This document shows, in pieces, positions 7,180-34,307 of a stretch of 64,000 nucleotides of DNA (position 1 is its first letter; each line of letters starts with the position of its first letter). The DNA is from Halopseudomonas laoshanensis (GTDB lineage: Bacteria; Pseudomonadota; Gammaproteobacteria; Pseudomonadales; Pseudomonadaceae). The notes below the pieces were generated by a model. The model saw only the letters and a program-made list of their open reading frames with translations, searched no databases and had not been told where the DNA came from. Both the position numbers and the translations under genes were made by a program. Location of the stretch: the NCBI RefSeq assembly GCF_008365385.1, contig NZ_QOVF01000003.1:310001-374000 (forward strand), read 5' to 3'.

Positions 7180-8190
7180 ATGAAAGCTGTTGGATATCAA
7201 CAAGCCGGTGATCTTGATCGCGAAGACGCGCTAGTGGACATCGAATTGCCCCGCCCCGAACCGGGTCCGCGTGATCTGCTGGTCAAGGTCGCTGCCGTCT
7301 CGGTCAATCCGGTAGACGCGAAGATCCGCCGCAACCGCGCGCCACTGACCGGTGCCTATGATGTGCTGGGTTGGGATGCGGTCGGTACCGTTGAGGCTAC
7401 CGGCGCTGAGGTCAGCGCGTTCAAGGCAGGTGACCGGGTTTACTATGCCGGGGCGGTTAATCGGCCCGGCTGCAATGCCGAATACCATCTGGTCGACGAG
7501 CGCATTGTCGGCCGTGCGCCCGCCAGCCTGAGTGATGCGCAGGCGGCTGCTCTGCCGCTGACCGCCATCACCGCCTGGGAGCTGCTGTTTGATCGCCTGG
7601 GCGTCACCGAAGGCGGCGGCGCCGGCCAGACTCTATTGGTGATCGGCGCTGCCGGTGGGGTGGGTTCAATCCTGGTGCAGCTGGCGCGTCAGTTAACCGA
7701 ACTGACAGTGGTGGCGACGGCCTCGCGGCCAGAAAGTGTGCAGTGGATCAGTGACTTGGGCGCGCAGCATGTGATTGACCACAATCAGCCCATGCTGGCG
7801 CAGTTGCAGGCCATAGGCATAGAGCAGGTTGAACTGGTTGCCTCGCTGACCCACACCGCCGAGCATTATGAGCAATATATCGAATGTCTGGCGCCGCAGG
7901 GCAAGCTGGGCCTGATCGATGATTTCGACAGCCTGGACGTTCTCAAGCTCAAACCCAAGTGCCTTTCGCTGCACTGGGAGTTCATGTTTGCCCGCAGCCT
8001 GCATCAGACCCCGGACATGATCGAACAGAGCCGACTGCTGAACCGGGTTGCAGAACTGGTAGACAAGGGCACCTTGAAAACCACCCTGGGTGAGCACTTC
8101 GGCACTATCAATGCGGCCAATCTGCTCAAGGCGCACCGATTGCTGGAAAGCCACAAGGCCCGGGGCAAGCTGGTACTCGAAGGTTTTTAA
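7180..8190 (+). CDS. Zinc-independent quinone-oxidoreductase-like dehydrogenase (MDR superfamily)
   Basis: A 336-residue medium-chain reductase. It has a GroES-like N-terminal domain (SVNPVDAKIR near 41-50, GWDAVG near 64-69) and a Rossmann fold with GAAGGVGS at 156-163. I see none of the structural-zinc cysteines of alcohol dehydrogenases, so it belongs with the NADPH quinone oxidoreductase/enoyl reductase branch often labelled zinc-binding alcohol dehydrogenase. GGGAG lies just before the start. It stands alone, and its substrate cannot be deduced. Confidence 0.87.
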   Translation: MKAVGYQQAGDLDREDALVDIELPRPEPGPRDLLVKVAAVSVNPVDAKIRRNRAPLTGAYDVLGWDAVGTVEATGAEVSAFKAGDRVYYAGAVNRPGCNAEYHLVDERIVGRAPASLSDAQAAALPLTAITAWELLFDRLGVTEGGGAGQTLLVIGAAGGVGSILVQLARQLTELTVVATASRPESVQWISDLGAQHVIDHNQPMLAQLQAIGIEQVELVASLTHTAEHYEQYIECLAPQGKLGLIDDFDSLDVLKLKPKCLSLHWEFMFARSLHQTPDMIEQSRLLNRVAELVDKGTLKTTLGEHFGTINAANLLKAHRLLESHKARGKLVLEGF

Positions 8191-8196
8191 CCTGTT

Positions 8197-8221
8197 GCGG
8201 CAGGCGCCTCGCGCTTGCCGC
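8197..8221 (+). terminator. Terminator-like hairpin after the dehydrogenase gene
   Basis: GCGGCAGGCG and CGCTTGCCGC form a ten-pair stem with one mismatch around a five-base loop, starting seven bases after the stop codon. Only a short T-rich tail (TTCTGTTA) follows. Confidence 0.5.
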
Positions 8222-8289
8222 TTCTGTTATCCGCTGCTAGGGTTAGCTCATCCCTCGGGATGCTCCCTCTTTTCTCTGGAACATGAATC

Positions 8290-8472
8290 ATGAGCTTTGC
8301 ACCGCACTCAGTCGCCTCTGTCATCGCCCTTTCGGGCGCAGCCGCTCGTGGGCTGACATCGGTGCCGGTGCAGAGCTTTGACGTCGCCTGTTGCATGGCG
8401 GCGCCTCCTGTCGCAGCGCCACCGCCGTTGATCGGTGCTGCAGATCTTTCGCCGCCACGGCGCGTGATCTGA
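8290..8472 (+). CDS. Possible leader peptide / small ORF upstream of DMT transporter
   Basis: A 60-codon frame inside the 401-base gap before the transporter. The product is Ala/Pro-rich with an unusual CCMAAPPVAAPPP stretch around residues 34-46. The ribosome site is weak (CTGGA, about ten bases before the ATG). Two stable hairpins fall within it: CGCCC-TTTC-GGGCG at 8325-8338, and an imperfect stem ending exactly on its stop codon, followed by a T-run. I do not recognise the peptide. It could be an attenuation-type leader peptide, or the RNA itself may be the functional element. Confidence 0.3.
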   Translation: MSFAPHSVASVIALSGAAARGLTSVPVQSFDVACCMAAPPVAAPPPLIGAADLSPPRRVI

Positions 8473-8492
8473 AAACACACTCCCTCTTTTTT
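8441..8492 (+). promoter_or_regulatory. Attenuator-like hairpin and T-run in DMT transporter leader
   Basis: CAGATC (8441) pairs with GATCTG (8466-8471) and CGCCG (8450) with CGGCG (8458-8462) around a CCA loop. Six Ts follow at 8487-8492. The T-run is 15 bases after the stem, so it is not a textbook intrinsic terminator. Its overlap with the end of the small ORF suggests translation-dependent folding. Confidence 0.4.
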
Positions 8493-8591
8493 GCGTTTCC
8501 CCTGAAGGCTGGCTGACTTGCTGGCCAGGTAGTCGCCGGTGAATGGGCGGCTGTCGGCATGGGAAGCGCGGTGTTTTGACAGGTGATAAGC

Positions 8592-9473
8592 ATGCTATTG
8601 AACAAATCGACCTGGGTCGCTCTCGGCCCTACCGCACTCTTCGTAATGCTGTGGAGCAGTGGTGCGATCTTCTCTTCCTGGGGGCTGCAGCATGCCTCCG
8701 CCTTTGCTTTTCTATTTCTGCGTTTCGTTATGGCCTGCGTGGTACTGGGCTTGTTGGCAAGTTACCGGCGACGCTGGTTGCCCGCCTTGGGTTCGCGGCG
8801 GCGGGTAGTGATGGTTGGTATTCTGCTGACGGGCGGGTACACCATCTTCTACCTGCTGTCGCTGGACCAGGGCATTACCCCGGGCGTACTGGCGACGGTG
8901 TTGGGCGTGCAACCGATCCTGACGTTGCTGCTGGTAGAGCGCCGAGTGTCCTGGATGCGTATTGCTGGATTGCTGCTGGCGCTGGGTGGGTTAACGCTGG
9001 TAGTGCTGGAAAGCCTGCTGGCCGCGCGCTTCTCGCTACTGGGCATCAGCCTGACTCTGGCCGCGCTGGCGTGTATCACGTTCGGCTCGATATTCCAGAA
9101 AGGCCTGCAGCAGGCACCGATGGATGTGCTGCCGCTGCAATACCTGATCGGCCTGTTGATGTGCCTGCTGTTTGTACCCTTTCAGCCATTCGAGTATGAG
9201 CTGACGGTGGGCTTTATCGTGCCGCTGATCTATATGGGCGTGGTGATTTCGGTGCTGGCGACGCTGTTGCTCTACCGGCTGATTCAAGCGGGCAATCTGG
9301 TCAATGTCACCAGTCTGTTCTACCTGGTACCGGGTGTGACCGCAGGGCTGGATTATCTGTTTCTGGGTAACCGCATGGCGCCGCTGAGTTTGCTAGGCAT
9401 GCTGGCGATTCTGGCTGGTTTGGCGTTGGTGTTCCGGACGCCCGCTGCCAGCGGGCGTCCGGTGGCCGATTAG
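8592..9473 (+). CDS. DMT-superfamily (EamA) transporter
   Basis: A 293-residue integral membrane protein with about ten hydrophobic helices and two EamA repeats. The N-terminal [32 protein letters not shown] pattern is typical of drug/metabolite exporters, and the second repeat follows [21 protein letters not shown]. The ATG at 8592 has AGGTG close upstream. The substrate is unknown; amino acid or metabolite export is common in the family. The long structured leader suggests post-transcriptional control. Its end overlaps the stop of the convergent aldo/keto reductase gene by four bases. Confidence 0.87.
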
Positions 9474-10270
9474 TCCCAGGCCGGCGCGAAGTCCGGATTG
9501 GCGATACGCTCGCCGCGTTCCAGCGCGGCGATGGCCGCCACGTCTTCCTGGCTGAGCTGAATCTTCGCTGCGTCCAGGTTGGTCTGTTGATTGGCGCGCT
9601 TGGTCGAGGATGGAATCACCACGTAACCGGATTGCAGTAACCAGGCCAGGGCCACTTGCGCTGGGGTCACCTGGTGCGCGGTGGCAATCGCCTGCAGCAC
9701 TGGATCCTGCATTACCTTGCCTACTGCCAGCGGCATATAGGCAGTCAGTTGAATGCCCTGCTCACGGGCGAATCCGGCCAGCTTGCGGTAATGCAGGAAG
9801 GGGTGGATTTCGACTTGGTTGGTGGCGATATTCTCGGCGCCAACCAGATCAATCGCCTGGGTCAGATGCTCGATGGTGAAGTTGGATACGCCAATGGCGC
9901 GGGTCAGGCCCTGTTCGCGCGCTTCCAGCAGCATTGGCAGATACTCTTCCATCGGCACCTTGTCCTCCGGCGATGGCCAGTGAATCAAGGTTAGATCGAC
10001 CTGCTTCAAACCCAGTTTTTGCAGGCTTTCCTGCAAGCTCGGAATCAGCTTCTCCGGCTTGAGGTTGGCAATCCAGATCTTGGTGGTGATAAACAGCTCA
10101 TCGCGCGGGATACCGCTGGCGGCGATGGCTTCGCCGACTTCCTTTTCATTGTCATAGATCTGCGCGGTATCGATGTGCCGGTAACCCAGCTCCAAGGCAA
10201 TGGTGACCGCATCGATCACTTCCTGTCCCTTGAGGCGAAAAGTACCAAAACCCAATGGTGGAATCGTCAT
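9470..10270 (-). CDS. Aldo/keto reductase (DkgB-like)
   Basis: A 266-residue NADPH-dependent aldo/keto reductase of the 2,5-diketo-gluconate/methylglyoxal reductase group. The catalytic tetrad is visible: D34, Y39 (AQIYDNE), K64 (TTKIW) and H97 (LIHWP). The cofactor-binding tail [17 protein letters not shown] is present. It follows an MFS exporter on the same strand with a 35-base gap, and the two probably share a transcript. The real substrate is likely a reactive carbonyl, but that is family knowledge, not shown here. Confidence 0.9.
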
Positions 10271-10305
10271 TCTGTGTCTCCGAAATAATGGTCAGTAGTA
10301 ACGTA

Positions 10306-11502
10306 TCAGTACTCAGCCGCAGAGGCCGCTGAGGAATAATCTGTGGGGGCGCGATCCAGTCGACCGCTCCAGAGCGTCAGGCCGACGGCGCCGAGTACCA
10401 CCAGTGCGCCTATCCAGGTGGTATGTATCAGGCCCGGGCCAGCGACAATCAAGCCGCCGAACCAGGCGCCCCCGGCGATGCCCAGATTGAAGGCGGCGAT
10501 ATTCAGCCCGGATGCCACGTCCACCGCCTGCGGCGCATAGCGTTCGGCCTGCTGCACTACATACACCTGCAGGCCCGGCACGTTGCCAAAGGCGACTGCG
10601 CCCCAGAGCAGCACCGTCAGCAGTGCCAACCAGGGCGTACTGGCGGTAAAGGTCAGCGCCATTAGTACCGCCGCCAGACCGAGGAAAATCATCACTAGCG
10701 CTTTGATCGGCCCCAAACGGTCAGCCAGCCGACCGCCGAGAATATTGCCGAAGGCCACCGACACACCATAGACCAACAGCACCAGGCTGACAGTTCCCGC
10801 AGTGAAACCACTTATTTCCTGAAGGATCGGCGCCAGATAGGTGAAGGCGATAAAGGATCCACCGTAACCGACTGCGGTCATCGCGTAGACCAGCAGCAGG
10901 CGTGGCTGGCGCAGCACGCTGAGTTGTTGCAACAGCGATGCGGGAGGGTTGTGCTGGATGCTCCTGAGAACAAACAGCAGGCTGCCGATAAAGGCGATCA
11001 CGCCCAACGCAGAGACGGCGAGAAAGGTTTCGCGCCAGCCAAACTGCTGACCAATGAAGGTGCCCAGCGGCACGCCGGTAACCAGCGCCACGGTCAGGCC
11101 GGTGAACATGATGGCAATCGCGCTGGCGGCCTTCTCGCGGGGCACCAGGCTGGTAGCGATGGTTGAGCCGATCGAGAAGAACACGCCATGGGCCAGGCCG
11201 GTGACCAAGCGCGCAAGAATCAGTGATTCATAACCGGGCGCCTGCCAGGCGAGCAGATTGCCCAGGGTGATAATCACCATCAGCGACAGCAGCAACAGCT
11301 TGCGCGGCACCCGGCCGGTCAACGCGGTCAGCAAGGGCGCACCGATGGCCACACCGAGTGCGTACAGGCTAACCAGCAGGCCGGCCGAGGGCACACTGAC
11401 GCCCAGGTCCAGGGCGATGGTCGGGATCAGGCCAACGATGACGAACTCGGTGGTTCCTATGGCGAAGGCGCTGAGGGTCAGCGCCAGAAGGGCAATGGGC
11501 AT
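10306..11502 (-). CDS. MFS transporter (arabinose-efflux/DHA1 type)
   Basis: A 398-residue, twelve-helix major facilitator. Helix 1 (LTLSAFAIGTTEFVIVGLIPTIALDLGVSVPSAG) and the LLTALTGRVPRKLLLL loop are typical of the AraJ/YdhP-like DHA1 exporters. It is transcribed away from the LysR regulator that starts 99 bases away, with the aldo/keto reductase gene downstream. The pair may form a LysR-controlled detoxification unit. The substrate is not determinable. Confidence 0.88.
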   Translation of the reverse strand: MPIALLALTLSAFAIGTTEFVIVGLIPTIALDLGVSVPSAGLLVSLYALGVAIGAPLLTALTGRVPRKLLLLSLMVIITLGNLLAWQAPGYESLILARLVTGLAHGVFFSIGSTIATSLVPREKAASAIAIMFTGLTVALVTGVPLGTFIGQQFGWRETFLAVSALGVIAFIGSLLFVLRSIQHNPPASLLQQLSVLRQPRLLLVYAMTAVGYGGSFIAFTYLAPILQEISGFTAGTVSLVLLVYGVSVAFGNILGGRLADRLGPIKALVMIFLGLAAVLMALTFTASTPWLALLTVLLWGAVAFGNVPGLQVYVVQQAERYAPQAVDVASGLNIAAFNLGIAGGAWFGGLIVAGPGLIHTTWIGALVVLGAVGLTLWSGRLDRAPTDYSSAASAAEY

Positions 11503-11601
11503 GGCAATCTCTCAATGAGTGGATCAGGTGCGCAGTGTGCCCGCCTTACCTTTGCCGAATAAGGGGGTAGCGGGCATTTCATTTTTGACTAAAATGCATG
11601 A

Positions 11602-12501
11602 ATGAAAACGACACTTGATGAGTTGCAGGCCTTTGTCCGGGTGGTGGACAGTGGCTCGATCAGCGCGGCGGCAGAGCAGGTACAGCAGACCGCCTCCGGC
11701 ATCAGCCGGGCGCTCAGTCGGCTGGAGGACAAACTCGGCACCACGCTGTTGCGGCGCACTACCCGGCGCCTGGAATTGACTGAAGAAGGCGTGGCCTTTC
11801 TCGCCGATGCGCGGCAGATTCTGGATGCGGTGGAAGCGGCGGAGGAGCAGATCGCCCTGCGTCGCCAGCGCCCGGCTGGGCGTTTGCGCGTTAACGCTTC
11901 CACGCCGGTGATGCTGCACATCATCGTGCCGTTGCTCGAGAGTTTTCGCGCGCGCTATCCGGACATCGATCTGGAGCTGGACAGCGACGAGCTGTATATC
12001 GACCTGCTGGAACAGCGTACCGATGTGGCTATTCGTGTCGGCACATTGCGCGACTCCACGCTGCATGCGCGCTCGCTGGGTCATAGCCGACTGCGGATTC
12101 TTGCCAGTCCTGGCTATCTCAAGGCGCATGGCATCCCGCTGCAGGTAGAGGAGCTTGCCGCCCATAGCTTGCTCGGATTTACCGAGCCGGAGAGTCTGAA
12201 CCTCTGGCCGCTGCGCCATGCGTTAGGCGATCGCTTCGCGATTGAGCCAGCGATCAAGGCGTCCAACGGCGAGACCCTGCGGCAACTGGCGCTGGACGGT
12301 CAGGGCATTGCCTGCCTGTCGGATTTCATGACGCTGGCAGATCGTCGGCAGGGCCGTTTGGTGGAGGTGCTTGCCGAGTACGACAATGGCCATCAGCAGC
12401 CAATCCACGCGGTGTATTACCGCAATACGGCCCTGGCCGCCCGCATCACCTGTTTCCTTGATCATGTTCAGGACTGGATGAGCACTGACGCAAACCGTTA
12501 G
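11602..12501 (+). CDS. LysR-family transcriptional regulator
   Basis: A 299-residue regulator with an N-terminal winged helix-turn-helix (residues 1-60: FVRVVDSGSISAAAEQVQQTASGISRALSRLEDKLGTTLLRRTTRRLELTEEG) and a periplasmic-binding-like effector domain from about 90. It resembles the CrgA/DsdC-like branch that controls divergent transporter or reductase genes. It is divergent from the MFS-AKR pair, so control of that pair is the simplest inference. The intergenic region is only 99 bases. Confidence 0.92.
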   Translation: MKTTLDELQAFVRVVDSGSISAAAEQVQQTASGISRALSRLEDKLGTTLLRRTTRRLELTEEGVAFLADARQILDAVEAAEEQIALRRQRPAGRLRVNASTPVMLHIIVPLLESFRARYPDIDLELDSDELYIDLLEQRTDVAIRVGTLRDSTLHARSLGHSRLRILASPGYLKAHGIPLQVEELAAHSLLGFTEPESLNLWPLRHALGDRFAIEPAIKASNGETLRQLALDGQGIACLSDFMTLADRRQGRLVEVLAEYDNGHQQPIHAVYYRNTALAARITCFLDHVQDWMSTDANR

Positions 12502-12536
12502 GCTAACCTTCTATCTGCTTTCATCAGGAGAAACCC

Positions 12537-13574
12537 ATGAGCGCACACCCATTGCTGGGCAGCCAGCTCCCCATCATCCAGGCACCCATGGCCGGGGTTC
12601 AGGACAGCACGCTGGCGCTGGCGGTCTGCCGTGCCGGCGGGTTGGGCTCGATCCCCGCCGCCATGCTTGGGCCCGAGGCACTGGCCGCGGAACTCAAGAC
12701 CATGCACGAGCAGGCCGCGGGGCCATGGAATGTGAATTTTTTCTGCCATACCCCGCCGACAGCGGATGACCAGCGCGAAGCGGCCTGGCGTCAGGCGCTG
12801 GCGCCCTATTACCAGGAACTGGGGTTGGATATCGAGAGCATCCCCAGCGGCGCCGGACGCCGGCCCTTTGACGCCCAGGCACTCGAGCTGCTACGCGAGT
12901 GCAAGCCGCCGGTAGTCAGCTTTCATTTCGGCCTGCCGCAGCCCGAACTGCTGGATGAACTGAAAAGCTGGGGCACCACTGTGCTTTCATCTGCCACCAC
13001 GGTAGGCGAAGCCCTGTGGCTGGAGGCCCATGGTGCGGACGCGGTGATTGCGCAAGGTCTGGAAGCTGGCGGACATCGCGGGATGTTTCTGACCGAAGAC
13101 GTCACCACCCAGGTCAGCACCTTCGCCTTGCTGCCGCAGCTGGTAGAGGCCGTCAGGCTGCCGGTTATCGCCGCTGGCGGCATAGCCGACGCCGCCGGGG
13201 TGCGCGCCGCCAAGGCACTGGGCGCAGTGGCGGTGCAGGTCGGCACGGCCTACCTGCTGTGCCCCGAAGCCAACACCAGCGCCGTACATCGTCAGGCGTT
13301 GCAAAGTGAAGCAGCGCTGCACACGGCGCTAACCAATGTGTTTTCCGGGCGCCCGGCACGCGGCATCGTCAATCGGGTGATACGCGAGTTGGGTCCGATC
13401 AGTGAGCTAGCGCCAGCGTTTCCCTTGGCCGGCACCGCCATCACACCCCTGCGCGGCGCGGCGGAAAAGCGCGGCAGTGGCGATTTCTCACCGCTCTGGG
13501 CCGGGCAGAATGTACGTGGCTGTAAGCCGATATCCGCCACTGAGCTGACCCACTTGCTGATGGGCGCGCACTAG
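12537..13574 (+). CDS. Nitronate monooxygenase family flavoprotein
   Basis: A 345-residue FMN TIM barrel. It has PIIQAPMAGVQDSTLALAVCRAGGLGSIPAAML at the N-terminus, SFHFGLP near 127, QGLEAGGHRG near 174 and AAGGIADA near 217, the last two forming the phosphate-binding region. The family oxidises alkyl nitronates such as propionate-3-nitronate. Members are also often annotated as 2-nitropropane dioxygenase or enoyl-ACP reductase II. The start has a strong AGGAG. It lies 35 bases after the LysR gene on the same strand and may be cotranscribed. Confidence 0.9.
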   Translation: MSAHPLLGSQLPIIQAPMAGVQDSTLALAVCRAGGLGSIPAAMLGPEALAAELKTMHEQAAGPWNVNFFCHTPPTADDQREAAWRQALAPYYQELGLDIESIPSGAGRRPFDAQALELLRECKPPVVSFHFGLPQPELLDELKSWGTTVLSSATTVGEALWLEAHGADAVIAQGLEAGGHRGMFLTEDVTTQVSTFALLPQLVEAVRLPVIAAGGIADAAGVRAAKALGAVAVQVGTAYLLCPEANTSAVHRQALQSEAALHTALTNVFSGRPARGIVNRVIRELGPISELAPAFPLAGTAITPLRGAAEKRGSGDFSPLWAGQNVRGCKPISATELTHLLMGAH

Positions 13575-13578
13575 CGCG

Positions 13579-14340
13579 TCAAGCCGGGTCGATTGGCTGC
13601 GGATCGTAACCCGGCGGTGGTTTGCAGGTGTGAGGGCAGGTACTGCACAGCGTCTTGCCCGGCAGTTTGTAGCGGATGCAGCAATTCAGCCGTTCGCGTT
13701 GCAACTGCGCCTCGCCCCCGCGGGAGACATAACGGATGCTGTCATGCAGTGGATTGCGGAAACTATCCGGGCGGCAACGCTGGCTGATCAACTCCCCGGT
13801 CTGGTCCATCAAGCTCTGGCGTACCGGGTATTTACCCAGCTCACCGAGGATCCATTCCAGATAGTGCCCGGCGCTGCTCCAGAGCACCTTGGGTGAGAGT
13901 TTCACCTGGCTGCTCAGGGCGCGAATCAACGGGTCCAGGTGCCCATCGAGCAGATCGGCGAAGCGTTCAAAGGCGTTTCTGGGCTCGTTCGGCCACGCGC
14001 GACCTGCATCGGGCAATTGGAACGCGGCGGGCAGGCCATCTTCGCCCATGATGATGCGCAGATCCTGGGCGCGCACGGGCAGTTTCCAGTTGGCATTCAG
14101 GCTGGCAATGATCACCGGTGGGATCAGTCGCAGGAAATGGTATTTGATCCAGATAGAGACCAGCGCGCGACGATCAGCATCCCTGTATTGCGGCGCAAAG
14201 CGCATCAGGCAGGCCTCCACGTGCGCTGGCTCCAGGTATTCCTGCATCGACAGCGAGGGTCGCGGATCGTCGCTGAACACCAGAGTGTCACCCAGCGCTA
14301 CGAGAGGGTCTGGAAATAGCGCTGTCAGGGCGGGTTGCAT
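13579..14340 (-). CDS. fhuF: Siderophore-iron reductase FhuF
   Basis: A 253-residue cytoplasmic ferric-siderophore reductase. The decisive feature is the C-terminal iron-sulfur motif C-C-x10-C-x2-C: C220/C221, C232 and C235, as in E. coli FhuF. The preceding region (SRGGEAQLQRERLNCCIRY) is also family-like. It would release iron from siderophores brought in by the importer at 3.4-7.1 kb. A Fur-like box (14424-14442) lies upstream and overlaps the end of the exporter gene, so it probably has its own iron-regulated promoter. Confidence 0.9.
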   Translation of the reverse strand: MQPALTALFPDPLVALGDTLVFSDDPRPSLSMQEYLEPAHVEACLMRFAPQYRDADRRALVSIWIKYHFLRLIPPVIIASLNANWKLPVRAQDLRIIMGEDGLPAAFQLPDAGRAWPNEPRNAFERFADLLDGHLDPLIRALSSQVKLSPKVLWSSAGHYLEWILGELGKYPVRQSLMDQTGELISQRCRPDSFRNPLHDSIRYVSRGGEAQLQRERLNCCIRYKLPGKTLCSTCPHTCKPPPGYDPQPIDPA

Positions 14341-14423
14341 GGCGTCTCCAGGCCGGCCTTGGTAGCCGGCTAAGGGATGCGGCGCCAGAGAATGTGGCAG
14401 GCGCCTGCGAAGGGCGTCAATCT

Positions 14424-14442
14424 AAACCATTATCATTCATAT
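14424..14442. promoter_or_regulatory. Candidate Fur box before fhuF
   Basis: AAACCATTATCATTCATAT matches half of the Fur consensus and shares 13 of 14 bases (AACCATTATCAnTC) with the candidate box before the siderophore importer. It overlaps the stop codon of the exporter gene upstream. Confidence 0.6.
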
Positions 14443-16089
14443 ATTCAAGAGCGCATCGGCGCTGGCGCTGGCGCGTTGCTCGCCAATCAGCTCCAACAGG
14501 CGGCCATTGTCCATCTTCAATACGCGGTCGGCCTGGTCGAAATAATGGTCGTCATGGGTAATCGCGATCACGGTTTTGCCCGCCGCCTTGAACTGCGGCA
14601 GCAGCTCGCGATAGAACAGCCGGCGGAACAGCGGATCCTGATCGGCGGCCCATTCGTCGAGCAGCAGAATGTCGCGTTGCTCAAGCAGGCCCAGCAGCAG
14701 CGCCAGGCGTTTGCGCTGGCCCTGGGATAACTGGATGTCGCTCAAGCGACCATCGACGATGCCGACCTTGTGCTGCAGGTGCAGCTTGCTCAACCAGCTG
14801 TCCACTTCAGCATCGGGCACTTCGTTGCCGTCCTTGCCCAGCAGCCGGCTGAACAAATGAAAGTCACTGAAGACGCTGGCGAACATTTGCCGGTAGGCGC
14901 TGAGTTCCTGTTCGGCCACGGGCCGGTCGTCCAGGCTGATCTGACCGCTGTGCGGGCGATACAAGCCGGTGAGGAGACGGGCCATGGTTGACTTGCCACT
15001 GCCGTTTCCGCCAATCACGAAGATCACTTCGCCACGGCGCACGGTCAAATCCAGCGGGCCAACATCAAAGCCTTCGCCCTCTTCCGCCGGATAGCGGTAC
15101 ACCAGCGATTGCAGCCGCAGCTCCTTCCAGTCGGATTTCAACGGCGCGACTTCGTGGAAGGCTTCGGTATGTGGCGTCAGCGCCAGGGTTTCCAGCTTGT
15201 TCAGCGACACTTGAGCAGTGATCAGATGCGGCAGGGTATTCACCGCCGCGACCATCGGCGTGCGCAGAAACAACATGGTCAGCGCATAGGTAGCGGCCAC
15301 TGCCGGCTCGGCCCAGCCCAGGCCGCCGGCGAGGAAAAACACCAGGCCGATGAGCCCCAGCACCATGATATTCGCCCAGTTGCCGGACAGCCCGTAGAAG
15401 GTATCGGCGCGGATGATCTCGTCACGGTACAGGCGTGCGTTGTCGTCAAATTCTTCCTGGTACAACCGGTTGGCGCGGTGTCGATTGAGCGCCAGTTCCT
15501 TGCGCCCTTCAATCACGTCCTGATAGTTGCCGTACAGGCGATCTTCCGCTTCGCGCATGCGCTGGATATGCCGATGCACGCGGCTGACCAGCAGCCAGCC
15601 AACGACGAAGGTCAGGCCCAGCCAGAGTAACGTGGTGATAAACAGCGGACCGGATAGCCATGCCAGGTAAACAAAGGCGGCCAACGTCAGCGCCATGCCG
15701 TAGAGCATTTCCGGCAGGCCGACAAAAGCCACAGTGATATTGCGGATATCGGTCGACAGGCTGGCCAGAATACGCGCGCCACCGATCTGCTCGATACGCT
15801 CTATGTCGGTATCCAGCACGCGTTTGACCAGCGAGCGACGCATCCGGTAAACGAAGCCGTGACTCAGACGGTGCAAACCGATCTGCGCGCCCGTGGCACA
15901 CAGCAGCAGCGCGCAGAGCAGCCCGGCAAAGCCGAGCAGCGCCTGGCCGAGGTCTTCCGTGCCGGCGATCAGGCGATTGTTGACGTAAGCGATCACCGCG
16001 ACGCTGAGCAGGGCGCTGCCGACGCTCAGCAGCATGATGCCGAGTAGCGGCAAGCGATTATCGCGAAATAACAGGGACAGCAATTTCAT
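14437..16089 (-). CDS. Cyclic-peptide/siderophore export ABC transporter (PvdE/SyrD family)
   Basis: A 550-residue fused exporter with six transmembrane helices (residues about 10-280), then an ATPase. Walker A is GGNGSGKST near 362-370, the signature LSQGQ near 453, and Walker B ILLLDEWAADQDP near 476. The EWAADQDP ending, in place of DEPTS, is characteristic of the cyclic peptide exporter family that includes PvdE (pyoverdine) and SyrD. No non-ribosomal peptide synthetase or maturation gene is in the window, which is unusual for PvdE. The gene sits directly upstream of fhuF, so an iron role is likely. Confidence 0.88.
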   Translation of the reverse strand: MKLLSLLFRDNRLPLLGIMLLSVGSALLSVAVIAYVNNRLIAGTEDLGQALLGFAGLLCALLLCATGAQIGLHRLSHGFVYRMRRSLVKRVLDTDIERIEQIGGARILASLSTDIRNITVAFVGLPEMLYGMALTLAAFVYLAWLSGPLFITTLLWLGLTFVVGWLLVSRVHRHIQRMREAEDRLYGNYQDVIEGRKELALNRHRANRLYQEEFDDNARLYRDEIIRADTFYGLSGNWANIMVLGLIGLVFFLAGGLGWAEPAVAATYALTMLFLRTPMVAAVNTLPHLITAQVSLNKLETLALTPHTEAFHEVAPLKSDWKELRLQSLVYRYPAEEGEGFDVGPLDLTVRRGEVIFVIGGNGSGKSTMARLLTGLYRPHSGQISLDDRPVAEQELSAYRQMFASVFSDFHLFSRLLGKDGNEVPDAEVDSWLSKLHLQHKVGIVDGRLSDIQLSQGQRKRLALLLGLLEQRDILLLDEWAADQDPLFRRLFYRELLPQFKAAGKTVIAITHDDHYFDQADRVLKMDNGRLLELIGEQRASASADALLNI

Positions 16090-29349: not shown

Positions 29350-29421
29350 GTTGTGGCTTGTGCTCTGATGTTGATCCGGGGAGGAGTCGTTCAACGTCCA
29401 TCATAGGCCACATTCAAAGCG

Positions 29422-29862
29422 TCACGCTCTCACCGCCAAGAGATAATCAACCGTTGCAGACATGACAAGCTCGCCGTTCTGATCCGATGTCTCAAGCTTG
29501 CATTTGACCACGCCGTAGCTCTTGCCCGGCTTTGGTGGTTTCTTCTCCAGCACGGATACTCGCACGCTAAGAGAGTTGGGGAGCGTAACCGGGCGATGCC
29601 ACCGCACGTTCTCCATTCCTGATGCCCCAGTCATGGACGTTTGCATCAGAAAGCCGTCGACAACAATGGACGCGGTGAGCGAGAGCGTATGCAGACCGCT
29701 GGCAATCAGTTGACCGTAGATCGAGTTATCAGCCTGCGTCGGATCGAGTTGGACCGGGAGACGATCAAACTCGTTGCAGAAGCGCAAGGAGTCTTCTTCG
29801 GTCAATGGCCTTGGGCCCAGCGTCAGCATCTCACCCGGGCTGATGTCGTCGAAGTACCTCAT
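29422..29862 (-). CDS. MaoC-family (hotdog) dehydratase
   Basis: A 146-residue single-hotdog protein resembling (R)-enoyl-CoA hydratases. The catalytic-type region YGQLIASGLHTLSLTASIVVDGFL corresponds to the 'D..N..H' motif but with Q and S in the usual places, so activity is uncertain. ENVRWHRPVTLPNSLSVRVSVLEKKPP is family-typical. I used the ATG with GAGG upstream, 48 bases inside a longer frame. It begins a same-strand run with the NAD(P)-binding protein and a methyltransferase. Confidence 0.82.
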   Translation of the reverse strand: MRYFDDISPGEMLTLGPRPLTEEDSLRFCNEFDRLPVQLDPTQADNSIYGQLIASGLHTLSLTASIVVDGFLMQTSMTGASGMENVRWHRPVTLPNSLSVRVSVLEKKPPKPGKSYGVVKCKLETSDQNGELVMSATVDYLLAVRA

Positions 29863-30169
29863 AAATTCCTCACTCTGCCTGATGGCAAGCGACTCACACC
29901 CTGTTTCCATACGGTTCAGAAGAGGTAATATTCATCTGACCCCAACTACCCAGGGTAACGACAAGTCTAAGCGCGAAATAGTGACTCTGAGCTGGCAATC
30001 AGTCAGTGAAGGGAATTAGATCGGTTAGCGAGGTAGCAGGATCAGAAGAATTAAGTTCATCTTAACTGACCCCAATCACCCTCTTTGTTTTTGCCCAAAT
30101 TCCGGTTAGGTTCTGAACACCCTAGTCAGCCGAGTGGTTAGCGGTTGGCTTGATTGACCTCTTGTGGCT
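29863..30169. other. Gene-free stretch with CTGACCCC repeats, left edge of AT-rich island
   Basis: I see no credible gene here. It holds TTCATCTGACCCCAA at 29931-29945 and a second CTGACCCCAA at 30066-30075 with TTCATCTTAA just before it. The base composition drops here from GC-rich to AT-rich. The segment near 30022-30041 (GGTTAGCGAGGTAGCAGGAT) echoes GCGCGAGGTAGGAT near 32096. Confidence 0.6.
29931..29945 (+). repeat. TTCATCTGACCCC repeat copy 1
   Basis: The 13-mer TTCATCTGACCCC followed by AA. The same 13-mer recurs at 31975-31987 and inverted at 31946-31958, bracketing the two-gene cassette. Confidence 0.8.
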
Positions 30170-31144
30170 TTAATATTCGTTAAAATCAGGTTCATATGTA
30201 TAAGACGCTTCTACCTCGTCTCTAGCTTCTTGCAGCTCATCTTCGGTGTACAATCCAAAATATTCGGCAGGAGTGTAAATAGTCTTAGCCGAAAATGTAT
30301 CTCCCAGGTCACAAGCGGATAGCTTGGAAAAACCTGAGATTTTAAGTCCGCATGCAATACACTCAAAGCTTGATGGCAGCATAGATTGCCTTTGAACAAC
30401 CTCATCTTCTTCATCGTTGATTTCTGTAGAAACAGCTCCGACTGGCGCACCATGAAGTAACGCTACGGAAGCACAAGACGGGCACTCTACCCGGTGGCCT
30501 GACTGTCTTGTAGCCCAGGTAGTAGCTTGGAGTACGGCATCTTTTTTATCTGTATCTGGTTTATTTGCCCAAACCTTGGAGTGAGCCGAAATGTCTTGGC
30601 TAACACTTCTTGCGGCATCATCACCCAATGATTGAATTAATGATTCAGCATGTTTAGCATCTTCAACAAAGTCTGACAAATTTTTCCCAATAGATCTAAG
30701 CAAAGTGTCGCACGATTGATAAAAACGGGGCAGCCAACGTGCAGTCCCATTTTGACCGAAGATAACTTCACCCGTGTGGAGCTCTGCGTTACGGTCATCT
30801 GTGTGCTTAGAGCAAAAACCAGCCATTTCTTCTGTGAACTCTGGCAAAAGCTCTGTCAGTCTAGCCAACACTTCTTTTGTTGAAATCGAAATCGGATTGA
30901 ATTTCTTTGCTGTAGGTGCATTACCTAGGGCAAAAGTAATATTTCTCCAATTCTTTGAATCAGCCAATAGTACGGGAGATATGTTTGACAAAGCAGCTCT
31001 TGCCAATAGCTCGAGACTCAATGAAGACCAGAGCCCATATTGCCAGTCATCAGCCACACTTGCTTCCATTTGCTGTACATAAGTTAAGGATTTAGCAAAA
31101 AGAGAGTCGGCTTCCCAAGGGCTATTCGTTATTTTGCTTAGCAT
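30170..31144 (-). CDS. HEPN-like protein with C-terminal zinc ribbon
   Basis: A 324-residue soluble protein I cannot assign to a named family. The all-helical N-terminal half contains ADDWQYGLWSSLSLELLARAAL (30-51) and R118-NAEL-H123, an R-x4-H motif as in HEPN ribonucleases. Four cysteines follow as two pairs (C221/C224 and C262/C265), a probable zinc ribbon, then an acidic tail. The gene is AT-rich compared with its flanks. It begins 10 bases after the TauD-like gene and is probably its operon partner. A HEPN nuclease or toxin role is inferred from the motif and fold pattern only. Confidence 0.75.
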   Translation of the reverse strand: MLSKITNSPWEADSLFAKSLTYVQQMEASVADDWQYGLWSSLSLELLARAALSNISPVLLADSKNWRNITFALGNAPTAKKFNPISISTKEVLARLTELLPEFTEEMAGFCSKHTDDRNAELHTGEVIFGQNGTARWLPRFYQSCDTLLRSIGKNLSDFVEDAKHAESLIQSLGDDAARSVSQDISAHSKVWANKPDTDKKDAVLQATTWATRQSGHRVECPSCASVALLHGAPVGAVSTEINDEEDEVVQRQSMLPSSFECIACGLKISGFSKLSACDLGDTFSAKTIYTPAEYFGLYTEDELQEARDEVEASYTYEPDFNEY

Positions 31145-31154
31145 TTATATTACT

Positions 31155-31811
31155 CTAGTTAAAATAAATTCGTTCAATTTGACGATCAATAAGTTCCAAT
31201 GGAACGCTAGATCGAGCGTGAAAGTTCAGGTGGTTGTTTATAACAAGCGTATCACCAAAGTTAATTAGCTTTAAATCGATAGCCATATTCCAAAAATTGT
31301 AATCCGACATTAAGTTTTTAATCGATTTAGCGTTTTCATTGACAGGCTCTAAAAATAATGAATCCCAACGAATGCAATTCTCGCCCTCATTTGTAAACAG
31401 CAGGGGAAGGAGGACGCTTTGTTTGCCACGAGACTTTGCTACAGCGCGCCTTAAACCTTGATCAAACATTAGGTCCGCAACGAGATTTAGCGGTAAGACT
31501 TTAGTAGACACTTCTTCGTAGCCCGATACACACCTTAACATTAAGTATTTTGGAGGTGTAGACCAATGCGCGAGATCTGTGTGCAATGGGAAAGCATTTA
31601 GCCCGAATTTACCGCTGTATTGGTTATTAGAAGAAAAGCTTATATCTTTTGGGTAAATCACTTGAACATCAGAGATCATCGAATGATTAAAATAACTGGA
31701 AATTTTTACAATTGTTCCAAGCGACGCCGCTAATGATTTGATTGAGCAGTCCGGCTTCCACTTCGGAATGAATACGAACCCGTTTTCTGCTAATTCTTTT
31801 TTTATATCCAT
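31155..31811 (-). CDS. TauD/TfdA-like 2OG-Fe(II) oxygenase
   Basis: A 218-residue protein, short for TauD (about 280). The iron ligands appear as H77-T-D79 within FPLHTDLAHWSTPPKYLMLRCVSG and a distal histidine H198 in NNHLNFHARSS. Arginines R210/R214 near the end could bind 2-oxoglutarate. The N-terminus (ELAENGFVFIPKW) and DTLVINN are also TauD-like. AT-rich codon use suggests transfer. It is immediately upstream of the HEPN-like gene. The substrate is unknown. Confidence 0.78.
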   Translation of the reverse strand: MDIKKELAENGFVFIPKWKPDCSIKSLAASLGTIVKISSYFNHSMISDVQVIYPKDISFSSNNQYSGKFGLNAFPLHTDLAHWSTPPKYLMLRCVSGYEEVSTKVLPLNLVADLMFDQGLRRAVAKSRGKQSVLLPLLFTNEGENCIRWDSLFLEPVNENAKSIKNLMSDYNFWNMAIDLKLINFGDTLVINNHLNFHARSSVPLELIDRQIERIYFN

Positions 31812-32127
31812 ATGCGCTCAAGTAAATTTTTATCCCTGGCATCGCGATTACCAAATTGCTCGCTGAAATGCTCTGTTATGATTTTTCGCGACTGATTAAA
31901 CATGCTCGATTGAATTGTTTTCCGAATACCGTCCCGAATATAATTGGGGTCAGATGAATATTAATGCAAAAAACTTCATCTGACCCCGATTTTGCCGATT
32001 TTGTACATGCCTTCCCTTTATGTTCTGTGGAACGCTCATAGGTTAATTCTCGATAATCCAATGTTCGGTGGCGGGCCTAACGACCGCGTAAAGCGCGCGA
32101 GGTAGGATCGTCGCATTTGACGCGTTT
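31812..32127. other. Gene-free stretch with inverted CTGACCCC repeat
   Basis: I see no convincing gene. It holds a 13-base perfect inverted repeat (31946-31987) and a GC-richer segment around 32070-32115 (GGCGGGCCTAACGACC, then GCGCGAGGTAGGATCG), which looks like a palindromic repeat remnant rather than coding sequence. Confidence 0.6.
31946..31987. repeat. Inverted repeat GGGGTCAGATGAA / TTCATCTGACCCC
   Basis: Two perfect 13-base arms (31946-31958 and 31975-31987) around a 16-base loop. The right arm is identical to the copy at 29931. CTGACCCC-type repeats of this kind are often seen beside REP-associated tyrosine transposases; no such transposase is intact here. Confidence 0.85.
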
Positions 32128-33153
32128 TTATATGCCGCCATCACGTATTACCTTAGCGATAAATGACACGGCTTTGTCATTATAAATACTCGGCATTGCT
32201 TTGGGTAATACTCCAGTTTCATTAAAAGTGTCCTCCTGCTTTTTGCTTCTAAAATTATATGCAGAGTAATCAGCGTTGTTTTTAAGATCAGTTTCAGCTA
32301 TTACTTTCCAAACATCAGATTGCTTTGCAGGTGGATACATTTTCTGGACCTCTGGGATGAGCTCCATGGCTGAAAGTGGGTAGAGTTTTGTTAGATTCTC
32401 TTTTACACGACGAACGACCTCTACTCTATCTATTGGCACAACATCACCTACGAGCTTGAGAGTCGCTGCACCGCCTTTTTCGACGAACTGCCCTTCTTTA
32501 ACAAATTTAAGTTTACTGGCAAGCACCTCATCTAACACAAGAACTCTTGAATCGCCTTTTTCGATTAAAGCTCTTTCTGTATCGAGGATCGCTGCATTTT
32601 GGGGGCCTGCCTGTCCAATTTTTGACATTAAGTCAAGCCACTGTTGATTGTTTTGTTCAATACGTTTATTGATGATATTTTCTAACTCAGCAGATTGTAT
32701 TTTCTGAGTCCTGCCGCCGTACCTATAATATATTTCGCCGTTTTTTATGCTTTGGTCTTTCCCTTCGTCTTTCTTAGCTATTACGGGTTTCGCTGCGGAT
32801 TCATATATTCTAAAAACACCGAGATTTACACCGCCTACTTCCACTAATGCTGCTTCCCATCGTATTTCCGCAGAAAATATTTCCAGTAAATAACCTGTGA
32901 CCTTTTCTGGGTCTAGCTTTTCAAACTGGTCAACTGACTTTTCGGACATGCCAGTTAAGGTTCTAGGTGAGTCTTTGACACCATGAACAAGAAAACCACC
33001 TCTGTTGTTTGAGAATGCGGCGAAATCTCTAAAGTAATCAGCGAGCGCAGCAAGATTAAATTGTTCCTTGAACTCCAGCTCTTGCCCTTCTCTGTGAAAA
33101 AGGGTTGCACCTTTCAGCCTAACCAGTTCTTCGATTTCTTCCTGAATTATCAT
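32128..33153 (-). CDS. Schlafen/AlbA_2 domain ATP-binding-like protein
   Basis: A 341-residue protein. The AlbA_2 (Schlafen core) domain spans about 20-160. It shows E-L-E-F-K-E (25-30), FRDFAAFSNNRGGFLVHGVKDSPR (41-64), and GEIYYRYGGRTQKIQ at its end. The rest (about 170-341) is helical and unassigned. AlbA_2 proteins are often predicted transcriptional or RNA-acting regulators and occur in defence islands; eukaryotic Schlafens cleave tRNA. The AT-rich composition matches the two preceding island genes, but it lies outside the repeat-bracketed cassette and has its own upstream region. Confidence 0.83.
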   Translation of the reverse strand: MIIQEEIEELVRLKGATLFHREGQELEFKEQFNLAALADYFRDFAAFSNNRGGFLVHGVKDSPRTLTGMSEKSVDQFEKLDPEKVTGYLLEIFSAEIRWEAALVEVGGVNLGVFRIYESAAKPVIAKKDEGKDQSIKNGEIYYRYGGRTQKIQSAELENIINKRIEQNNQQWLDLMSKIGQAGPQNAAILDTERALIEKGDSRVLVLDEVLASKLKFVKEGQFVEKGGAATLKLVGDVVPIDRVEVVRRVKENLTKLYPLSAMELIPEVQKMYPPAKQSDVWKVIAETDLKNNADYSAYNFRSKKQEDTFNETGVLPKAMPSIYNDKAVSFIAKVIRDGGI

Positions 33154-33560
33154 ATATTTTTCAGCTTATCTCATGACCTCAAAAGGCATCTGATAATGAT
33201 CAGATCGGGCGCGTACGCGCGTCTTTTAATAAGTGATATAACACCTTTCCTCTAAAGCGGGATATTCTTCAACCTAATCATGCCTTGATCTTTCTTCCCT
33301 GCAAGCGGTTGTACTTTAAACCGCACGCGATCTAACCCCGTTATAGTAAACGCGCAGCACCCCACGACAACCAGCAATGGCTGGTGGCTGTGGATGTTTT
33401 GAGAAATTAGATCGGGCATCCATGCCACCGAGAAGGGGCTGCAATTTGGCAGCTACTGGCATAGTGATACTTTTTTACCGGTGTTGCCAACCTTCTTTTT
33501 GCAGCGTACCGCTAGGGTTGTTGGCGCGTTATAAAGCCGGAGCGCGGTCCCGGCTTTGAC
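33154..33560. other. Gene-free stretch at right edge of AT-rich island
   Basis: I see no convincing gene in these 407 bases. They contain a small hairpin (CCAGC-AAT-GGCTGG, near 33370) and the terminator-like stem at 33533-33557. Composition returns to GC-rich at the end. No tRNA or integrase is visible that would mark an attachment site. Confidence 0.55.
33533..33557 (-). terminator. Terminator-like stem after TSUP gene
   Basis: AAAGCCGG and CCGGCTTT pair perfectly over eight bases around a nine-base loop, just beyond the stop of the leftward TSUP gene. The T-run is only three bases, so efficiency is uncertain. Confidence 0.55.
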
Positions 33561-34307
33561 CTACATATCCACCAGCGCCTTCCCCAACAACAACGTCCCG
33601 GAAATCACCAGCAAGCTATACAGAAACACGCGGAAGCGGTGTTCATTGAGGCGGTGGTGCAGAAACTCGCCAAGCAGTGCGCCGATCACCAGCAGCGGCA
33701 TAAAGCTGACCACCCTTGGCAGACTGGGGATCAGGGTGCCGTCGAGCAGGAAGATCACGCACAGGCAGGTGTTGAGGCTGAACCAGGTGCTGAGCAGGGT
33801 GGCGCGCAGGTGGCTTTTGTTCAGTGGGGTGCCGGCCATGGCGTAGACGAGCAGTGCGCCGCCGGAGGCGAACAGGCCGTGGGTAATGCCGGCGCCGAAG
33901 GTCAGCACGCGGCTGAGCATGGGGGGATGCGGGTGCACGGTATGTTTGTGGTACATGCGCCAGAGTTCACGGGTGGAGAACCAGAGCACCAGTATGCCGA
34001 AGGCGGCCTTGAGCAGTTGGTCGCCGAGCCAGGGACGCATCAGATAACCGGCCAGGGTGCCGGCTAGCATCAATGGAAGGATCAGCTTGAGCAGAGTTGG
34101 CCAGTGAATATGCCGGCGGTTGCGCCAGGCCATATAGCCGCTCATCAGCACATTCAGCGCGATCATCACTGGTATCAGCTGCGATAGGGGCAACAGCAAC
34201 GCACCGAGGGACAGGGCGATGATCAGGCTGCCGAAGCCGGTGATGGCTTCAACCGTGTAGGCCAATAATATAAAGGCGCCGACCCAGATCCAGGGATCGA
34301 CAATCAT
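33561..34307 (-). CDS. TSUP (TauE/SafE) family membrane protein
   Basis: A 248-residue, roughly eight-helix membrane protein with AYTVEAITGFGSLIIALSLGALLLPLSQLIPVMIALNVL and the second repeat GAGITHGLFASGGALLVYAMAG. It probably carries an organic or sulfur anion. It is the last gene of a same-strand run (monooxygenase, BASS transporter, two SDR-type genes, TSUP) and follows the SDR gene by 37 bases. It is only distantly like the TSUP gene at 27 kb. Confidence 0.86.
   Translation of the reverse strand: MIVDPWIWVGAFILLAYTVEAITGFGSLIIALSLGALLLPLSQLIPVMIALNVLMSGYMAWRNRRHIHWPTLLKLILPLMLAGTLAGYLMRPWLGDQLLKAAFGILVLWFSTRELWRMYHKHTVHPHPPMLSRVLTFGAGITHGLFASGGALLVYAMAGTPLNKSHLRATLLSTWFSLNTCLCVIFLLDGTLIPSLPRVVSFMPLLVIGALLGEFLHHRLNEHRFRVFLYSLLVISGTLLLGKALVDM

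Follow-up and report, generated by a model that had tools for sequence, protein, structure and literature searches.

Two adjacent genes in Halopseudomonas laoshanensis, encoding a TauD-like 2-oxoglutarate (2OG)-Fe(II) oxygenase and a HEPN/zinc-ribbon protein, form a real, widespread unit. Their constant co-travel on mobile DNA, often near virus-defence genes, points to an undescribed two-enzyme defence module. The pair was studied in a stretch of 64,000 nucleotides (contig NZ_QOVF01000003.1, positions 310,001 to 374,000), hereafter the window, in which the oxygenase gene (31811-31155, minus strand, 218 amino acids) is followed 10 bases on by the HEPN/zinc-ribbon gene (31144-30170, minus strand, 324 amino acids). 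An earlier note made from the letters alone, the sequence-only reading, had described two AT-rich genes with this spacing on one strand; coordinates and base composition agree, the GC (guanine plus cytosine) fraction being 0.44 and 0.39 in the two genes vs about 0.60 in the surroundings. The two genes are as follows.

31155-31811, minus strand: upstream gene, TauD/clavaminate-synthase-like 2OG-Fe(II) oxygenase (from the open reading frame, Pfam TauD match, conserved residues and fold)
30170-31144, minus strand: downstream gene, protein with N-terminal HEPN domain (about 7-158) and four-cysteine zinc ribbon (221-265) (from the open reading frame, conserved residues and fold)

When the HEPN gene was taken as the starting point, all 31 other loci carried an oxygenase of the same subfamily directly upstream on the same strand. 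These loci come from six public genomes, 12 plasmids, one congener, one of 369 genomes in a class sample, six of 398 in a phylum sample (own genome left out) and five viral-contig entries. Pairing was read in all frames in 26 of them and from open reading frames (ORFs) in the five viral-contig entries; ORF picking overlooks the L023 and L086 oxygenases and the L026 HEPN frame, all of which appear when every frame is read. The oxygenase is present though unannotated in L024 and L028, and is cut by the contig end in L066. L067 and L016 are probably the same genome, because their scores are identical, which leaves about 30 distinct loci. The coupling is tight: of the 18 loci L011-L028, ten show a 4-base overlap of the two frames and four an overlap of 7-8 bases, and gaps of 2-13 bases separate the frames in the other four. 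In a Rhizobium plasmid (L020, 7396-9107) the oxygenase frame is open but the HEPN gene falls into two ORFs.

The reverse search gave the same picture. Among the 398 genomes of the phylum sample, the oxygenase found eight matches at 1e-10, seven of them (own genome included) beside a HEPN gene, and these seven are the same genomes as found from the HEPN side. At the eighth (G455), about 108 bases of contig follow the oxygenase stop codon, and an ORF begins there that we take to be IS3-type; the HEPN gene is lost or unseen, because the contig ends at this point. Two more loci opened from the oxygenase side, a viral contig and one of four Pseudomonas aeruginosa plasmids with an oxygenase match, have the HEPN gene adjacent, with motifs RRNEEVH and RRNAELH. 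A HEPN match occurs in 40 plasmid records, 32 of them typed conjugative; 12 were opened, the other 28 are largely from the same organisms, and unopened records such as H9, H35 and H39 list an oxygenase match immediately upstream. The organism count of plasmid oxygenase matches includes 2 Streptomyces records. In viral contigs, a first scan found none among 62 candidates, a wider profile found five and the oxygenase profile one more. The sequence-only reading would have fallen had the genes never been found together elsewhere, and this outcome is refuted by the 31 HEPN loci and both further oxygenase-first loci.

HEPN ribonucleases carry the motif R-x4-6-H, and R118-N119-x3-H123 of the downstream protein fits this definition in 26 of 26 loci. 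The residues named beforehand, R118-NAEL-H123 and C221/C224/C262/C265 in this protein and H77/D79/H198 in the oxygenase, stand at the positions claimed and are conserved. The four cysteines lie in a beta-rich C-terminal part and are kept in 25 of 26 loci; in the remaining locus the gene is truncated. An AlphaFold2 model (predicted local distance difference test, pLDDT, 76; predicted template modelling score, pTM, 0.53) places a helical domain at about residues 7-158. Its best match in VIA-align, a comparison in which helical bundles may reach about 13 by chance, is AF0298 (Z 13.3, 2.7 A over 122 residues), followed by sacsin HEPN (Z 11.1) and HepT (Z 10.3, 2.8 A over 110 residues), with Csm6 (Z 7.4), HepS (6.8) and AbiV (5.9) lower down. 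HEPN or MntA-HpeT is named in 11 of the first 24 titles, the rest being Csm6, HepS, MtlR and uncharacterised proteins. Foldseek alone gave no row with E <= 0.001 for this model, and placed sacsin HEPN third with probability 0.89. Thus a four-helix HEPN fold is predicted, as the earlier note had expected, and the assignment appears secure for a modelled structure, because the fold rows are consistent and the RNxELH motif is invariant. No convincing fold match was obtained for the zinc-ribbon part in VIA-align, a comparison that barely tests it, and a sequence-only PDB search with the HEPN protein returned nothing credible. No Pfam family lies above cut-off for the window's protein or 24 members; DUF7129, Elf1 and DinG matches to the window's protein were rejected as weak and below cut-off, and DUF7129 matches 10 of the 24 members (best 8.9e-4). 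Nor was a separate ligand-binding domain recognised in the HEPN protein by Pfam scans.

For the upstream protein, the Pfam TauD match lies just above cut-off (1.6e-6, 28.6 bits vs 27), and a profile built from seven oxygenase members finds clavaminate synthase at 5.3e-9, with lysine and arginine hydroxylases among the weaker matches. The nearest solved relatives are AsnO, OrfP/VioC, clavaminate synthase and CarC. The AlphaFold2 model (pLDDT 73.5, pTM 0.72; active-site loop 62-78 of low confidence) has 242 Foldseek matches in the PDB with E <= 0.001, and structure alignment gives Z 11.6-12.7 over 178-201 residues in the best 50 rows (AsnO, Z 12.6, 3.9 A over 198 residues). The HxD motif, the distal histidine and an arginine align with the iron- and 2OG-binding residues of clavaminate synthase. 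Across the 26 loci, H198 and R214 are invariant, R210 is found in 25, H77 in 25 (the remaining row is cut by the contig end), and position 79 is D in 22 and E in three; R148 and D150 are each conserved in 25. Pfam match, iron triad and predicted fold therefore agree on the TauD-like 2OG-Fe(II) oxygenase proposed earlier, which has the HxD/E...H triad, C-terminal 2OG arginine and predicted double-stranded beta-helix of that superfamily. A base-modifying role, also raised in the earlier note, is without support, since the nearest solved relatives are mostly amino-acid-type hydroxylases.

Synonymous sites are saturated in comparison with the two closest relatives, while nonsynonymous divergence (pN) is 0.08-0.11 for the HEPN gene and 0.23 for the oxygenase gene, which argues for strong purifying selection on both. 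The oxygenase evolves faster, with a mean identity across loci of about 31%; of 253 locus pairs, 192 show higher conservation in the HEPN protein. Distance matrices of the two proteins over 23 loci (L020, L027 and L066 left out as split, truncated or contig-end rows) correlate with r 0.86, a value reached in 0 of 5000 permutations and uncorrected for shared ancestry. Because catalytic residues are nearly invariant and purifying selection is strong, both enzymes look catalytically active.

The distribution of the pair is patchy. Of 36 congeners searched, one (G003) has a homologue, 45% identical, and none of 21 other relatives of that search has any, whereas the flank with the sulfite-exporter TauE-family gene is shared across the genus: it is matched in 34 of 37 genomes, in a few by short stretches only. 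The presence/absence comparison suggested earlier thus came out in part: the segment is absent from most congeners, but no intact empty site was found among relatives. In G026 and G030, flanks 79-92% identical to the window's enclose other genes, which marks the locus as variable and speaks against a clean insertion. At this variable site (window 29411-33288), L059 has different small genes between the same flanks, and L060 has what is presumably a tyrosine-recombinase and transposase-like set.

In G003 (L065) the pair stands alone between attC-type sites at 7875-7941 and 9549-9643, two of an array of such sites that were identified visually by their end motifs. The site at 9549 folds better than all shuffles (z -4.0), that at 7875 weakly (z -2.2), and an integron integrase over cut-off lies at the edge of another contig. 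With attC-type bounds and an integrase in the genome, the G003 copy classes as an integron cassette; if so, one cassette carrying exactly these two genes argues that the two suffice. The array as a whole (7875-15149) comprises several cassettes with no relation to each other; the pair is one, and a protein that matches AriA/Old weakly is also encoded there. For the window copy, an attC candidate at 32050-32128 folds no better than shuffles, and no integron integrase over cut-off was found in the genome.

The sequence-only reading also saw a cassette bracketed by repeats. The 13-mer TTCATCTGACCCC is indeed exact at 29931 (plus), 31946 (minus) and 31975 (plus), and six matches with at most two mismatches occur, a number reached by none of 100 shuffles. 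The arms are even longer than noted: the pair is enclosed by 23-nucleotide inverted-repeat arms (29926-29948 and 31941-31963) that are 96% complementary, and 31942-31958 with 31975-31991 forms a strong hairpin (DNA fold z -7.3). The repeat features are listed here, REP standing for repetitive extragenic palindromic.

29926-29948, plus strand: REP-like repeat, downstream arm of the 23-nucleotide inverted repeat (sequence comparison)
30066-30081, plus strand: degenerate repeat copy (88% over 16 nucleotides)
31941-31991, no strand assigned: palindromic doublet, upstream arm of the 23-nucleotide inverted repeat with a mirror copy (repeat search, DNA fold)

What did not hold is the repeat as a mark of a cassette, for it is a genome-wide palindrome. 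The genome has 10 exact copies of TTCATCTGACCCC, three of them at the pair, and a second inverted doublet with the same 29-base offset lies on its contig C13 (157525-157566). No exact copy occurs in any other paired locus fetched; among 116 fetched loci it is confined to stretches of the own genome and one congener stretch that is devoid of the pair (L054). The RAYT transposase (Y1_Tnp, PF01797) has no match in the own genome at E <= 0.001. On these grounds the repeat is treated as a dispersed REP-like palindrome around the pair, and it is no proof of a mobile unit. Transposon ends were rejected for now, given the ten copies and the doublet on C13, and mobilisation by a RAYT was rejected for lack of a match.

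The earlier note suggested a search for defence genes near other copies of the pair, and such genes occur there. PADLOC detects GajA and GajB (Gabija) in L017 and L025, a HamB-type (Hachiman-type) helicase in L014 and L015, Ppl in L116 (8.5e-142) and partly in L026, MkoC (Mokosh-type) in L016, AbiH in L021 and PDC-S68 in L088. The last is a 1265-aa (amino acid) helicase that ends right at the oxygenase start, as if in one operon (L088, 10330-14127). Records name a TrlF ATPase adjoining the pair in L023, L026 and L116; in L023 and L026 the opposite flank has a GIY-YIG protein. The pair thus recurs with a TrlF/Ppl ATPase at L023 4202-9445, L026 4166-9310 and L116 6968-11652, with the GIY-YIG nuclease-family protein downstream in the first two, whose oxygenases have HxE in place of HxD. 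These loci may represent a larger four-gene subtype; no paper on TrlF in phage defence was found.

In the window, the AT-rich island extends beyond the pair, past 33 kb, and contains a third gene.

32128-33153, minus strand: Schlafen/AlbA_2-domain protein, a neighbour outside the conserved pair (Pfam SLFN_AlbA_2, 1.9e-15)

This protein matches the PADLOC candidate PDC-S50 weakly (1.6e-7), and the annotated genes around the pair in the plasmid loci include none named Schlafen or AlbA. A 33-aa frame at 31804-31902 (minus strand), overlapping the oxygenase start, was considered as a further gene and dropped as probably due to chance. The upstream sequences of nine paired loci, compared by eye, have nothing in common.

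HEPN ribonucleases serve widely as immune effectors in bacteria, and the way in which they are triggered is set by their partners. The reading we prefer, which may well hold but falls just short of being probable, is a mobile two-enzyme conflict module, anti-phage or toxin-antitoxin-like, in which the oxygenase would control the HEPN ribonuclease. The downstream protein would be a HEPN endoribonuclease with RNxELH as its active site, and its C-terminal zinc ribbon probably binds its RNA or its trigger. The upstream, closely coupled oxygenase would be its dedicated enzymatic partner: upstream, tightly coupled, catalytically intact and never seen without the HEPN gene where the locus is intact, it likely sets HEPN activity. 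Most likely it would hydroxylate the HEPN protein and keep it inactive, until infection, by disturbing the oxygenase or its cofactors, released the HEPN protein; such control is likened to the disarming of HepT by MntA through nucleotide transfer. Ribonuclease activity and a role in defence are inferred here, as are the direction and the chemistry of control and, with them, how the two proteins would act on each other. It is possible, though we hold this with distinctly more reserve, that the pair is the first immune module in which a hydroxylase dependent on 2-oxoglutarate, Fe(II) and O2 directly controls a HEPN ribonuclease effector; infection would then be sensed by way of the oxygenase or its cofactors, with protein hydroxylation as the safety catch of an RNA-cutting weapon.

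Several observations weigh against the preferred reading. No HEPN match was found in 50,697 phage records. Neighbour genes matched more PADLOC models than control genes from the same plasmids and genomes did (160 in 130 neighbour ORFs of 14 loci vs 32 in 137 control ORFs, 2 of 139 having been dropped by a size limit), but this excess counts redundant models, many of them from the two Gabija loci. For eight of 20 neighbour proteins picked by hand, PADLOC gave no match at 1e-10; these eight include both genes beside HamB (L014 and L015) that had been guessed to be HamA, and the protein annotated AbiV in L021. Judged from their ORFs, the surroundings of the pair in L012, L013, L087 and the window are ordinary or mixed genes. 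In sequence, the oxygenase comes closest to solved enzymes whose substrates are mostly amino acids or similar small molecules, and it might activate rather than inhibit the zinc-ribbon HEPN protein.

The small-molecule relatives lead to the main rival, in which the HEPN/zinc-ribbon protein senses a hydroxylated small-molecule product of the oxygenase (for instance a hydroxy-amino acid or nucleotide derivative), or a transfer RNA or other RNA is modified and then cut or spared. We consider this rather unlikely. Free-amino-acid hydroxylases are among the nearest solved relatives, and R148 and D150 are kept as if one substrate were shared family-wide, although a structural role would explain these residues equally well. 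Signal-gated HEPN effectors are known, Csm6 being a structural neighbour, and the available part of PMC13092281 gives DS-11, which combines CBS and HEPN domains, as a precedent; against this, the HEPN protein has no recognised ligand-binding domain of its own. The pair could also be a plain toxin-antitoxin or plasmid-stabilising module whose oxygenase acts as a binding antitoxin, with catalysis secondary. The upstream position of the oxygenase, the overlapping frames, the many plasmid homes and VapBC-type neighbours in several plasmid loci would suit this explanation. It is nevertheless improbable, because almost every locus retains the iron and 2OG residues, which a pure binder would not need, even as the rest of the protein drifts.

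TauD-family enzymes are mostly catabolic or biosynthetic, so a metabolic or stress operon was weighed as well, in which a taurine-dioxygenase-like scavenging enzyme and an unrelated RNA-binding protein share mobile DNA by chance. The TauE-family gene of the window (33561-34307) lies 1.7 kb upstream of the oxygenase start, and transporter genes occur within some kb of the pair in L020 and L023. The TauE flank is, however, general in a genus in which the pair is rare, no one metabolic gene type recurs beside the pair in the annotated tables, and the HEPN catalytic residues are invariant, all of which makes this explanation very improbable.

If the preferred reading of an oxygenase controlling a HEPN ribonuclease is true, a dedicated oxygenase partner would make hydroxylation, and with it the status of oxygen, iron and 2OG, a part of bacterial immunity; the literature found describes no such chemistry in HEPN systems. 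The pair is small and mobile, being carried on plasmids and in an integron-type cassette and lying near other defence genes. Its novelty, suspected by the sequence-only reading as an unfamiliar combination, stands so far: neither protein has a PADLOC 2023 family at E up to 1, and searches of main texts (supplements and subscription papers outside) for HEPN with TauD, dioxygenase or 2-oxoglutarate in defence gave no description of the pair among the matches listed. The words oxygenase, 2OG and hydroxylase are absent from the main text of a HEPN survey (PMC3710099). In the accessible parts of PMC7159879, HEPN and oxygenase words meet only in the references, and in those of PMC10696648 and PMC12342005 in unrelated places; the excerpts available on DefensePredictor (PMC13092281), Tn7 cargo (PMC8649781) and BREX (PMC12839542) mention HEPN and no oxygenase.

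Among known systems, the DUF4145-like HEPN family, to which the available part of the survey ascribes an occasional zinc ribbon and restriction neighbours (PMC3710099), shares the HEPN domain and zinc ribbon with the downstream protein, but none of 24 members of the present family has a Pfam DUF4145 match. The upstream protein resembles clavaminate synthase, AsnO, VioC/OrfP and KDO1 in sequence, fold, iron ligands and 2OG arginine; it differs from them in its length of about 220 amino acids and its tie to a HEPN gene. Anti-phage HEPN effectors such as AbiV, HepS/Tha-type proteins and DS-11 are also comparable, AbiV and HepS appearing in the fold list, whereas none of these was found paired with an oxygenase in the portions of the sources available. 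In HEPN/MNT, as the part available of PMC7641770 describes, MntA covalently modifies the HepT toxin by adenylyl transfer. Like that system, the present pair consists of two adjacent genes, for a predicted HEPN ribonuclease and an enzyme partner, and HepT is among the best fold matches. Unlike there, the partner is a TauD-like 2OG-Fe(II) oxygenase instead of a nucleotidyltransferase, and the HEPN protein bears a zinc ribbon and is over twice the length of the HepT chains in the fold list.

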